64,000 bases of DNA from Methanosphaera sp. ISO3-F5 (GTDB lineage: Archaea; Methanobacteriota; Methanobacteria; Methanobacteriales; Methanobacteriaceae): the NCBI RefSeq assembly GCF_034480035.2, contig NZ_CP118753.2:1955426-2019425 (forward strand), read 5' to 3'. The notes beneath the pieces were generated by a model. That model was given only the letters and a program-made list of their open reading frames with translations, did no database searches and had not been told where the DNA came from. Every line of letters starts with the position of its first letter. Position 1 is the stretch's first letter. This document shows, piece by piece, positions 50,435 to 59,363 of the stretch. The position numbers and the translations under genes are program-made.

Positions 50435-51241
50435 TTATGGATATAATAATGAATCTTCAATTTCATATGCATTATATTTTTGAGCAATCTTATTAACAGT
50501 ACCATCAGAATACATTTCATCTAACGTTTTCTGAACTTGATTTTTAAGGTCATCATTTCCCTTTTTAAATGCAATACCATACTGTTCAAAAGCAATAGGT
50601 TCATCTAATATCTTAAATTTATCGGCACTTTTCTCTTTTATATGATATTTTGCAAGAGGAACATCTACTATTATTGCATCACAAACACCAGATTCCAGAT
50701 CCATAAATCCAGTATTATATTCTTTAATCTTAGTTAAAGATTTAAAACTATTCATCAAGCTTCGTTTCTCTTTCTCAAGAACATTCAGTGCTGAATGGCC
50801 TTCCTGAATTTCCACGTCTTTATCTTTTAAATCTTTTTGTGATGAAATATTTGAGTCAGCCTTAACAACTACAACTTGGGTATTGTTAAAATATGCTTTG
50901 GACCAGGTATATTCATCTTCCCTGCCATTAATTGTAAATTCACTCCATATACAATCCATCATTCCAGAATTTAGTTCAGTATTCTTAGTACCCCAATTAG
51001 TTATAGGTTGTGGAATAAAAGTCCAATTGTTACGTTCACAAACTTCTTTAGCTAGTTCAATATCAAAACCAGTGTATTCTCCATTATCAGCTTGATATCC
51101 GAAAGGAGGAAATTCTGAATTAAAACCAACTACAAATGATTTTTTAGAATCTAATGAATTAGAATTTTCTGCACAGACACAATTAGTTATTGATAATACA
51201 AATAATGAAATGATTAGTAATGTAAATAATTTCCTGAAAAT
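50435..51241 (-). CDS. Family 3 solute-binding protein, apparent ATT start
   Basis: 268 residues if read from ATT 51241-51239. The N-terminus is a clear signal peptide (FRKLFTLLIISLFVLSITNC then VCA), possibly a lipoprotein-like one. The mature part begins SFVVGFNSEFPPFGYQ and ELAKEVCERNNW, the hallmarks of amino-acid binding proteins. The frame closes at a TAA just upstream, and no ATG, GTG or TTG occurs before the paired ATGs at 50962, which would delete the signal and the first lobe. GGAGG stands 7 bases before the ATT. No ABC permease or ATPase is adjacent. Confidence 0.85.
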   Translation of the reverse strand: MFRKLFTLLIISLFVLSITNCVCAENSNSLDSKKSFVVGFNSEFPPFGYQADNGEYTGFDIELAKEVCERNNWTFIPQPITNWGTKNTELNSGMMDCIWSEFTINGREDEYTWSKAYFNNTQVVVVKADSNISSQKDLKDKDVEIQEGHSALNVLEKEKRSLMNSFKSLTKIKEYNTGFMDLESGVCDAIIVDVPLAKYHIKEKSADKFKILDEPIAFEQYGIAFKKGNDDLKNQVQKTLDEMYSDGTVNKIAQKYNAYEIEDSLLYP

Positions 51242-51248
51242 TGTAATT

Positions 51249-51253
51249 CCTCC
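51249..51253 (-). promoter_or_regulatory. GGAGG ribosome site setting an ATT start
   Basis: A perfect GGAGG lies 7 bases before ATT 51241. No other ribosome site fits this gene. Confidence 0.7.
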
Positions 51254-51341
51254 ATTACCTGTTTAATAAATATTTTTTAATTTATAAGTAATATATGTAA
51301 TGGATTACACTAAAAAAAAGGTTAAAGGGATATTGAAAACA

Positions 51342-53396
51342 TTAGTTTTCTGATGAGGAAGGATTGGAAGTGATGATGTCTGAAGGATTTGGTATAATCT
51401 CTTTAATTCTGTCCATTTTATTTTTTTTCAATTCTTTGATGAATTGTTCTTTTTTAGGACCAATTAATGCATATTCAAGAACTTCTGCAAGAGTGTTGAC
51501 TGGTATGATTTCTATCTTGTCCTGGTATTTTTTCTCTATTAACACATCATCCTTGTTTGATGCAGGTATAAGTACTCTTTTCATACCGGATTCAGCTGCG
51601 GCTTCTATTTTGTAGGTTACTCCACCTACTGGCAATACATTACCTCTTACGCTTAATGAACCTGTTAATGCTAATGTTTGATCAATAGGTATGTCTTCGA
51701 TAGCTGATATGATTGCTGTTGCCATGGATACACTTGCACTGTCTCCTTCGACTCCATCATATGATTGTACAAATTGTATGTGGATATCGTAATTGGATAT
51801 GTCTTTTCCAATGCTTTTCTTAATAATTGCCCCTACATTTTGTACTGCTTCTTTTGCTATGTCTCCTAGTTTTCCTGCTGCAATTATTTTACCTTCTTCT
51901 TTACTTTGTGATGGTGCTGCTTCTGCTGCAATAGGTAGTACGATACCGCTTGAGTTACCTATTACTGCTAATCCGTTGATGCATCCGATTGCTGATCCTT
52001 GGTTGTTGAATACACTGTATTCTTTTCTTTGTACAATGTATCTGTCTGCTATTTGTTGTTCTAGTGTTCTGGATTGTTTTTTAGCTTCGTATACGTGTTC
52101 TATTGTTACTTCTGGTGCTCCTTCTTCTACTGCTACGTCTCCTGCTGCACGAACTAGTCCACCAAGGTCTCTTAGTTTAAGGGTTAATGAGTCTTTTTTT
52201 CCTGCTCTTCTTTGTGCTTCTTTAATTACTTCTGCTACTGCTTCTTTGTTGAAGTGTGGTATTCTTCCATCATTTTTTACTTCTTGTGCTACGAATTGTC
52301 CTAGTTTTTGACGGTTTTCTGGTGTGTCTTTCATGGTGTCTTTCATGAATACTTCGTAACCGTATCCTCTTATTCTTGATCTTAATGCTATGTGCATGTC
52401 TTTTAGTACTTCTAGGTTTCCTGCTGCTACTAATACGAAATCACATGGTACTGCTTCTGTTCTTACCATTGCTCCACTACTGTTGTCACTTTGTCCTGTT
52501 ATTTGGAATTTGTGTTCTTGTAGTGCAGTTAGTAATTGTTGTTGTGTTTTCATGTTCATTGTACCGATTTCGTCAATGTATAGTACTCCCTTGTTTGCTT
52601 TGTGTATCATACCACTTTCTACTCTTTCGTGTGCTGGAGTTCCAAGTCCTCCTGATTGGTATGGGTCGTGTCTTACGTCACCGAGTAATGCTCCTGCGTG
52701 TGCTCCGGTTGCATCTACGAATGGTGCTACTTTTTTTGCGTCACTGTTTACTAGGAGTTTTGGTGCGACTTGGTTGTTTTTTGGTTTTATCTGGTATAAT
52801 GCGAAGAATACGATTCCTACTGCTATGATTGCTTCTAGGAATTGGCCTGTTATGAAACCTATTGCCATTATTAATCCTATGATTGCTACTGTTAGGATGT
52901 TTTTTCTTTCTTCCTGGCTTTTAACATTTTTTTTGCTGTTTTCTATTATTTTTGCTCCTTGTCCTGCTGGCATTACTCCTACTAGTGGGTTGTTTGGGTC
53001 TTCTAGGTTTGGGTATATTAGTATGTCTTGTAGTTCTTCTGGTGGTAGTAGTTCTGCCATTGCTTTTGCAATCATTGATTTACCGATTCCTGGTTCTCCT
53101 ATGAGGAGTACGTTTCTTCTTTGTTTTGCTGCTTTTTTGATTTTTTCTACTGCTTCTTCTTGTCCTATTATCTGGTCTATTAGCATTGGTGGTATGTCTA
53201 TGTTTTTTGTGTCTATGTAGTCATTTGGGTCTATTTCTGGTAGTGTTTCGTTTTCGGTGGTGTTGCTGGTTGTTTCTTCGTTTGAGGGTTCATTGTTTTC
53301 TTCATTTACTTCGATTATGTCTTCTGTTTCTGGTACTATTACTTCATCATCGATTATGTCTTCTTTATTTATTTCTTCCTCGTTTATATTGCTTAT
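51342..53396 (-). CDS. lonB: Membrane-anchored Lon protease (LonB), apparent ATA start
   Basis: 684 residues read from ATA 53396-53394. After an acidic N-terminal 60 residues comes [20 protein letters not shown], then the AAA+ Walker A GEPGIGKS (100-107), two membrane helices inserted after it ([14 protein letters not shown] and [13 protein letters not shown]), and the protease domain with catalytic Ser in [10 protein letters not shown] and Lys in [10 protein letters not shown]. The first ATG (53186) would remove 70 residues including conserved sequence. No ATG, GTG or TTG occurs before it, and a TAA closes the frame above. GGAGG lies 7 bases before the ATA. Confidence 0.93.
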
Positions 53397-53403
53397 ACAA
53401 ATC

Positions 53404-53408
53404 CCTCC
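53404..53408 (-). promoter_or_regulatory. GGAGG ribosome site setting an ATA start of lonB
   Basis: A perfect GGAGG is placed 7 bases before ATA 53396. The same spacing is seen at the ATT start of the solute-binding gene. Confidence 0.65.
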
Positions 53409-56335: not shown

Positions 56336-56989
56336 TTATTCTGTTTCTTTTGTGAAGTAGTCATGTATTTCGTCTATGTATTCTTGTTTTACTAGTACTG
56401 CTATGCTGTCATCGTAGCCTATTTCAGTGTTTTCTGTTGGTATTATTACTTCTTTTCCTGAGTAGACTGTTACGATTTTGAATTTGTTGCTGTTATTTTC
56501 GATTTCGTGTATTGGGGTGTATATTAGGTTGCTATTTTTTACTTCTAGTTCTATTATTTCAGCGTTTCCTTTACCCAGGTTTACTAGTCGTTGTGTTCTT
56601 GGTCTTATTATTGTTCGTGCTATGTATCTCATTGCACTTTGTTCGGTGTTTACTGTTCTTATGTTTAGTTTTTTAAATATTTCGTTGTGTTGCATATTGT
56701 TTACTCTGGCAACAATTATTTTTACTCCGTGTTCTTTTGCGTATACTGAGGATAGTAAGTTTACTTCATCGTTTCCTGTTGCTGCTACAAAGAAGTCTGA
56801 TTTAGGTACGTCTGCTTCTTCTAGTATTATTGTGTTTGTTCCGGATCCTTGTATTATGTAACAGTCTATTTCGTCTAGTTTTTGGCATGCTGTTTTGTCT
56901 TTTTCTATTATTGTGATGTCATGGTCTTCTGCCATTGATTTTGCTAAATTGAAACCTATACGTCCAGCACCAACTATTACACCTATCAT
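56336..56989 (-). CDS. trkA: TrkA-type potassium uptake regulatory protein
   Basis: 217 residues: a Rossmann RCK-N domain starting IGVIVGAGRIGFNLAKSMAE and a RCK-C domain from about 135. NAD/ATP-binding of this kind gates K+ channels or transporters. No transporter gene is adjacent. Confidence 0.9.
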   Translation of the reverse strand: MIGVIVGAGRIGFNLAKSMAEDHDITIIEKDKTACQKLDEIDCYIIQGSGTNTIILEEADVPKSDFFVAATGNDEVNLLSSVYAKEHGVKIIVARVNNMQHNEIFKKLNIRTVNTEQSAMRYIARTIIRPRTQRLVNLGKGNAEIIELEVKNSNLIYTPIHEIENNSNKFKIVTVYSGKEVIIPTENTEIGYDDSIAVLVKQEYIDEIHDYFTKETE

Positions 56990-57188
56990 ATTTTTTAGAC
57001 CTCGTATGTGGTTTATTATTATAATATTTTTTTTGGGTTTTGTTATGATTAAATTTTTTGGGTGGGATATGTTTTTTTTCTTAAAATTAGTTTTTATTTT
57101 TTTTTGGGTTTGTAATGCTGGTATATATATTATACCTAAAATTAGCTTGTAGTTTTTGTTTAATATGATGTAAGTTAGATTAAAAATT

Positions 57189-57264
<76 letters not shown>

Positions 57265-57291
57265 TTGTTATATGTTTCTTGTAATATTTGA

Positions 57292-57365
57292 TGCAACGAC
57301 CGGGATTCGAACCCGGGTCTCTACCGTGGCAGGGTAGGGTCTTAGCCAGACTGGACTATCGCTGC
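57292..57365 (-). tRNA. tRNA-Gly (GCC anticodon)
   Basis: The reverse complement begins GCAGCGA, pairing with TCGTTGC. The anticodon stem-loop CTACC-CTGCCAC-GGTAG gives GCC. It lies 27 bp upstream of the other tRNA-Gly on the same strand, so both probably come from one transcript. Confidence 0.95.
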
Positions 57366-58129: not shown

Positions 58130-58885
58130 ATGACATATTATGATGATTTAACAAAAGACGAAAAAAGAGTCACTATTTTTAAAGAAGCAATAAAACAAAA
58201 TGCACACGGACTAACATACGACCTAGGAACAGGCTCCGGAATACTAGCAGGCATAGCATCAAAATATGCCGACAAAGTATACGCATACGAAATAAACCCA
58301 CTAACAATAAAACACTACACAAAAGCAAACCTACAACAATACAACAACATAACAATAATAGAAACCGATGCAAGCACACATAAATTCACAGAAAAACCTG
58401 ACGTAGTAATATGTGAAATGCTAGACACAGCACTAATAGACGAAGAACAAGTACCAGTAACCAACAACATACAAAAATACACAAAAAAAGACACAATACA
58501 CATACCCCATTCAACATACGATACAATCATGATAGGACAAACAAACATAACCAACATCACATATCAAGAAAACAACAAACCCAACTTCAAAGAATACTCA
58601 GAAGAAACAAAATATAACGAAACAATATTCCGAGAAAAAAACAACACACACATACAAAAAGAAATAACACTAACATCCAAAAAAACAGGAACAATAAACA
58701 CAATAAAACTAACCACATACACCAGAGTAACAGAACAATTAATAACAGGACCAACGCCAATGTTAAATCCGCCTTTACTCATACCAACAAAAGAAAAAAA
58801 GGTAAAAAAAGGAGAAAAAATAAAAATACAACTAAAATACATAATGGGTGGTGGACTAAATACAATCCAAACAGATATACAATGA
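58130..58885 (+). CDS. SAM-dependent methyltransferase (COG4076-like)
   Basis: 251 residues. Motif I is TYDLGTGSGILAGIAS (near 28), followed by VYAYEINP and a VVICEMLDTALIDEEQ segment where PRMT-like enzymes have their catalytic acidic loop. The substrate may be protein or RNA. No ribosome site is seen, so the message may be leaderless. The 3' end overlaps the HycI-type gene, linking it to the pseudomurein-type operon. Confidence 0.75.
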   Translation: MTYYDDLTKDEKRVTIFKEAIKQNAHGLTYDLGTGSGILAGIASKYADKVYAYEINPLTIKHYTKANLQQYNNITIIETDASTHKFTEKPDVVICEMLDTALIDEEQVPVTNNIQKYTKKDTIHIPHSTYDTIMIGQTNITNITYQENNKPNFKEYSEETKYNETIFREKNNTHIQKEITLTSKKTGTINTIKLTTYTRVTEQLITGPTPMLNPPLLIPTKEKKVKKGEKIKIQLKYIMGGGLNTIQTDIQ

Positions 58886-59363
58886 ACTATCAAAATTTTT
58901 AAAACAATACGAAAAATTATTAATATTCACAATAGGAAACACAATGAGGGGAGATGATGGACTAGGACCATTACTATCAGAACAAGTATACAACAAACTA
59001 GTCGAAATAACAGACAAAAACACAGACAACGTATACCTATTAAACACAGAATCAACACCAGAAAACCATACAATAGAAATAAGAAACCTAAAACCATCAC
59101 ACATAATAATAATAGATGCAGTAGAATTTGAAGCAAAACCCGGAGAAATGCTACTAATAAACAAGGAACAAATAGATACCTTCAACATATCAACACACTC
59201 CATGCCAATATCATTCATAATAAACTACATAGAAGAAACAATAGGAAGCAAAATAATCACAATAGGAATACAACCAAAACAAATGGAACTAATAAACACA
59301 ATATCCGAAGAAGTAAAAGAAAGTGTAGAAGAATTAACTAATATCATAGTAGAACTAGTCTAG
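58860..59363 (+). CDS. Hydrogenase-maturation-type protease (HycI), apparent ATA start
   Basis: 167 residues if started at ATA 58860. The family trims the large subunit of NiFe hydrogenases. IFTIGNTMRGDDGLGP holds the conserved GN.xRGDDGxG with the metal-binding Asp, and IIIIDAVEF the next acidic site; HSMPI supplies the His. The ATG at 58944 falls inside the core motif and would destroy beta-strand 1. The frame above it is closed at 58857 and contains no ATG, GTG or TTG. GGTGGTGG lies 5 bases before ATA 58860; ATA 58875 is another option. Confidence 0.75.
   Translation: MQSKQIYNELSKFLKQYEKLLIFTIGNTMRGDDGLGPLLSEQVYNKLVEITDKNTDNVYLLNTESTPENHTIEIRNLKPSHIIIIDAVEFEAKPGEMLLINKEQIDTFNISTHSMPISFIINYIEETIGSKIITIGIQPKQMELINTISEEVKESVEELTNIIVELV

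Follow-up and report, generated by a model that had tools for sequence, protein, structure and literature searches.

An ATT codon as the probable start of a solute-binding protein gene in Methanosphaera sp. ISO3-F5, and a class of genes putatively started at ATA, ATT or ATC across the genus

The window, i.e. the whole stretch of 64,000 nucleotides from the rumen methanogen Methanosphaera sp. ISO3-F5 that was analysed, carries an orphan gene for a solute-binding protein (SBP), flanked by the gene of the archaeal LonB protease (lonB) on one side and by a DEAD-box helicase gene on the other; the features of concern here are collected in Table 1. On its own strand the start region of the SBP gene reads TTATTAAACAGGTAATGGAGGAATTACA-ATT-TTCAGGAAATTATTTACA, the Shine-Dalgarno (SD) motif GGAGG being followed by the seven-base spacer AATTACA, the ATT and then FRKLFTLLIISLFVLSITNCVCA. 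A spacing of 7 is the commonest GGAGG-to-ATG distance in the ISO3-F5 genome. An in-frame TAA lies 7 codons 5' of the ATT, and the first ATG is found only at ORF codon index 100—residue 94, if ATT is counted as 1—which is inside the domain, both the first GTG and the first TTG lying further downstream. The segment 5' of this first canonical start is coding by score, and the beginning of the protein, KLFTLLIISLFVLSITNCVCA-E, looks by eye like an export signal, similar segments being present in the orthologues. The minus strand thus bears out the initial annotation, which had placed an ATT just before a signal peptide and GGAGG 7 bases earlier, with no ATG, GTG or TTG before codon 94; its range, 50435-51253 in plus-strand (+) numbering, located the gene correctly, but takes in the SD motif, the coding sequence itself beginning at 51241 (-). 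In the reading for promoter and transcription start, the TATA-like stretches 5' of the ATT are unlike between the two strains compared.

Table 1. Location of the SBP gene, its start signals and the two other genes of the window with a putative ATA start
Feature	Position in window	Strand	Remarks
Open frame of the orphan SBP	50435-51262		
TAA stop of SBP	50437-50435	-	
SBP coding sequence	50438..51241	-	PF00497 (SBP_bac_3), amino-acid ABC transporter substrate-binding
Sec-like signal peptide, residues 1-24	51170..51241	-	IFRKLFTLLIISLFVLSITNCVCA, cut likely after VCA; by eye
Putative ATT start codon of SBP	51239..51241	-	7 nt 3' of GGAGG
GGAGG Shine-Dalgarno motif of SBP	51249..51253	-	sequence reading; identical in L023/L053
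Archaeal LonB protease (lonB)	51345..53396	-	putative ATA start 53396-53394, GGAGG-N7
GGAGG of lonB	53404..53408	-	
Hydrogenase maturation protease HycI (hycI)	58860..59360	+	ATA immediately after in-frame TAA; codon 29 is the first ATG

Concerning the protein, a profile search matches residues 37-257 to PF00497 with 110.3 bits (curated cut-off 26.4), and the closest solved structures are glutamine- and polar-amino-acid-binding proteins. No genes for an ABC permease or ATPase—the usual, albeit not obligatory, partners of PF00497 proteins—adjoin the SBP gene at this locus. A paralogue with 52% identity (L002) starts with ATG and belongs to an operon complete with binding protein, permease and ATPase (L068:8939-11121), no other full ABC operon of this family having been seen. 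Since the SBP stands alone while the paralogue has a complete operon, the former may be an additional binding protein feeding a shared transporter.

A homologue with 96% protein identity originates from an independent metagenome-assembled genome (MAG) of the same species from goat jejunum (L023/L053), with both GGAGG and ATT unchanged in spite of a difference in the codon adjoining the ATT on its 5' side. Between the two genomes the pN/pS ratio is 0.15 for the whole gene and 0.28 for codons 1-93, on small counts, with few changes in the latter; the frame is, as judged by these ratios, under purifying selection. The nearest intact orthologues, L003 and L004 from two other species (G006 and G015), are 65% identical to the SBP and have ATA aligned with its ATT, 7 nt after GGGGG/GGGGGG. 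They are not found beside lonB, so their locus differs from that of the SBP. No ATG, GTG or TTG precedes the aligned ATA in L003; in L004 a TTG overlaps the SD motif and could serve as the start instead. The more distant L005 and L006 possess an ATG near the position of the ATT. In the evolutionary tree, two groups are well supported, one made up of the two ATA-bearing sequences and the other of the two ATT-bearing ones together with a pseudogene from the sister species G005; they join with support 92/86, their next relatives, G003 and G009, carrying ATG. The pseudogene (L017/L049) occupies the same locus beside lonB, has lost the first ~110 residues and contains an in-frame TGA. The gene is therefore dispensable in G005, and decay is known in the lineage of the SBP, though not in the ISO3-F5 genome.

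The SBP gene is not a lone case; the sequences point to a class of ATH-started genes (ATH standing for ATA, ATT or ATC) across Methanosphaera, part of it conserved in the majority of species. The GGAGG-N7-ATA/ATT arrangement of lonB recurs in 12 of the 17 Methanosphaera species compared (two of the 12 also have a TTG 5' of the SD), the remaining species showing a spacing of 8 (one), TTG (two), ATG (one) or an undecided start (one). The gene queE (L280-L299) has no canonical start 5' of the SIQGEG motif in 17/20 Methanosphaera genomes, and in 11 of those 17 the first canonical start lies even beyond the radical-SAM CxxxCxxC cysteines. L285, L297 and L298 have ATT AAC TCT AAA immediately after a TAA in the same frame; G009 and G010, on the other hand, possess a potentially usable ATG, placed 5' of the SD motif or inside it, and G016 has ATG. 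Counted from the ATC start, the protein matches QueE family profiles from residues 2-4 onwards. As for hycI, the GGTGG upstream of its ATA (start region 58850-58862, plus strand) is situated within the preceding, overlapping gene, and the M. stadtmanae-like G014 (L091) likewise has ATA after TAA, with 71% identity from the first residue. The initial annotation had alluded to further cases in the window without naming them; these hold if lonB (ATA at 53396) and hycI (ATA at 58860) were meant. In the malate dehydrogenase gene (mdh) of ISO3-F5, an ATA occupies exactly the position at which most orthologues inspected, and a relative with 92% identity, have ATG; here ATG has recently given way to ATA in a single species. 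Proteins of the DUF1616 family have ATA in one species (L057) and ATC in another (L108).

Several additional observations and discarded candidates should be mentioned. The ATT or ATC of queE often comes right behind the stop codon of the upstream gene, translational coupling to that gene being possible. Two ORFs resembling MATE transporters by eye, L265:8570-9970 (+) and L103:8953-10320 (+), have a conserved N-terminus 5' of the first ATG; a GUU start is possible for them, with GTT located 7-9 nt after GGGAG/AGGAGG. In a PriS-like ORF (by eye) of G043, L251:9982-10998 (-), conservation extends over 31 codons 5' of the first canonical start, and no well-spaced SD-ATH combination is present. The ORF at 56336-57355 of the window, with its first ATG at codon 122, was rejected as a further case, since it is a TrkA-like protein (by eye) with an ordinary ATG and tRNA sequence before it, and many short conserved leads of 6-10 codons were judged to be alignment run-on.

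The extent of the class was estimated from samples of 400-464 kb from each of four Methanosphaera genomes, as well as from another genus of the family (300 kb) and a Methanothermobacter-like outgroup (400 kb). Among the GGAGG-led genes lacking ATG, GTG or TTG at the proper place, the in-frame codon at spacing 7 is ATH in 11/14 (binomial P = 3e-7 against a background of 10-15%), as compared with 3/28 at spacings 4 and 10 (Fisher P = 2e-5), and control motifs gave no ATH peak like that of GGAGG at spacing 7 in the genome samples. The GGAGG-led starts of the four Methanosphaera samples comprise 75 ATG, 14 TTG, 5 GTG and 15 ATH, the last corresponding to ~1.2% of the 1299 ORFs of at least 100 aa, a value covering only GGAGG-led genes and leaving out other SD motifs; ATH starts would be on the order of 1-3% of the sampled genes. 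The outgroups provided single good cases among more chance matches, namely a TMEM175-like protein with ATA (L129) and a TatD protein with ATT (L247). Within the Methanothermobacter-like G043, the TatD DNase at L247:12228-13007 (+) has a likely ATT start and the surface-protein-like ORF at L247:15029-18976 (+) a likely ATC start; because of these two candidates the trait may extend past Methanosphaera.

With regard to the initiation machinery, Methanosphaera has a conserved aIF1 (SUI1), a factor that in Sulfolobus reportedly selects against non-canonical starts (as cited in PMC6237735); the genomes in which it was not matched are, with one exception, incomplete. One initiator-like tRNA, with a CAU anticodon (L162), is found among 30 of the 34 tRNA matches, those taken as separate loci. 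A loss of aIF1 was thus rejected as the cause of the AUU tolerance, the SUI1 protein being present and looking ordinary, and so was an unusual initiator tRNA, given the CAU anticodon. Nothing in the initiation machinery looks altered, and it is apparently the strong SD that makes up for the AUU.

From sequence architecture, conservation and enrichment we infer that the ribosome initiates at the ATT, with methionine as residue 1; the start conservation, the aligned ATA, the ATG of more distant orthologues at about that place, the selection over codons 1-93 and the genus-wide class all support this start, as originally proposed for the SBP. The strong GGAGG, at the spacing favoured by AUG starts, would position the ribosome on the SBP mRNA, where the ordinary initiator Met-tRNA (anticodon CAU) would form base pairs with the A and the first U of AUU, the mismatch at the third base being tolerated. 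The protein would then begin with methionine, be exported via its signal peptide and bind an amino acid outside the cell, AUU, AUA or AUC behind a strong SD (AUH for short) representing the normal start of a gene class across Methanosphaera. Taken as a whole, this explanation is considered very likely to be correct. The yield from the AUU is probably below that from AUG, as Staphylococcus aureus reporters with non-canonical starts gave ~10-30% of the AUG level, and ~10% in poor medium (PMC13009471).

It is conceivable, albeit somewhat doubtful, that the AUH starts are more than tolerated, i.e. actively selected for low expression or for a response to initiation-factor activity, a role proposed for infC, pcnB and ccpN and one compatible with the explanation preferred here. 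The persistence of AUH in queE (17/20) and lonB (12/17), with A, T and C exchanged at the third base, would fit such selection, but a third base drifting in an AT-rich genome would also seldom become G, so that persistence alone cannot part selection from tolerance, and the switch in mdh is recent and confined to one species. More speculatively still, Methanosphaera and, less so, other Methanobacteriales might keep a regulon-like AUH set as a conserved expression dimmer sensitive to the supply of aIF1 or initiator tRNA. It is an equally speculative suggestion that this set—queE, lonB, the DUF1616 proteins and binding and surface proteins—could do in archaea what start-codon control through IF3 does in bacteria.

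A recent pseudogene, whose ATG has mutated to ATT and which is transcribed yet gives little or no protein, would agree with the truncated copy at the same locus in G005 and with the orphan state of the SBP, the ATG-started paralogue sitting in the complete operon. It is nevertheless improbable, the open frame persisting under selection in two genomes (pN/pS 0.15), the SD and ATT both being fixed, ATA occurring in two other species and the indispensable-looking lonB and queE sharing the start type. Even less probable is a start at the ATG of residue 94, at a different canonical codon inside the gene, or out of frame with a subsequent frameshift: an out-of-frame ATG does overlap the SD (TAATGGAGG), but its frame has only 13 codons, residue 94 has no SD-led start, the frame upstream of it is conserved, and, the SBP_bac_3 match beginning at residue 37, a protein starting there would lose both the putative signal and the first part of the domain, as had been anticipated. 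A sequencing or assembly error hiding a true ATG, for which only the single-technology (PacBio CLR-only) assembly (PMC11008217) could speak, is largely refuted by the ATT of the independent MAG and the ATA of the relatives and is hardly credible.

Many gene finders assume that genes start with AUG, GUG or UUG. If 1-3% of the genes of the genus start with AUU, AUA or AUC, many archaeal N-termini are probably absent from annotations, including signal peptides, Fe-S motifs and protease N-domains, and archaea would provide natural material for studying how start-codon fidelity depends on aIF1 and on the strength of the SD. The cleanest test gene is queE, some species having a stop codon directly 5' of its ATT.

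As a member of the family-3 solute-binding proteins (SBP_bac_3, GlnH/ArtJ-like), with which it shares the domain family and, judging by eye, would share a signal peptide, the SBP is ordinary except for its start and for the lack of an adjoining permease and ATPase. According to a review of archaeal initiation (PMC7531240), the start codons are AUG, GUG and UUG; a search of the open-access literature found no report of AUU, AUA or AUC starts in methanogens. In a survey of bacteria and archaea, sub-optimal starts were found to have stronger SDs and AUU to be a rare replacement of AUG, with 1 AUG-to-AUU switch among 61,358 AUG starts (Belinky et al. 2017; PMC5622118)—a figure that is partly circular because it is based on annotated starts, AUU being far rarer there than in the Methanosphaera samples. 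Bacterial starts at AUU or AUA behind strong SDs are an established phenomenon (infC, pcnB, ccpN). The S. aureus genes cvfC1 (AUU), ccpN, infC and citZ (AUA) have strong SDs and are conserved among relatives (PMC13009471), as in Methanosphaera; they are, however, four bacterial genes shown experimentally, whereas the Methanosphaera starts are predicted from sequence. A further likeness is to the AUU starts of infC and pcnB in Escherichia coli—pcnB being presented, in a title cited in PMC13009471, as the second chromosomal AUU example—where initiation is low in yield and the initiator tRNA pairs with two bases. As in infC-type genes, the SBP gene has no usable upstream AUG, GUG or UUG (nor have queE, mdh and hycI), possesses a strong SD at the proper spacing and keeps its start type in relatives. 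The E. coli genes are, however, bacterial and governed by IF3, whereas the Methanosphaera case is archaeal, with aIF1, and would involve on the order of 1-3% of the sampled genes.
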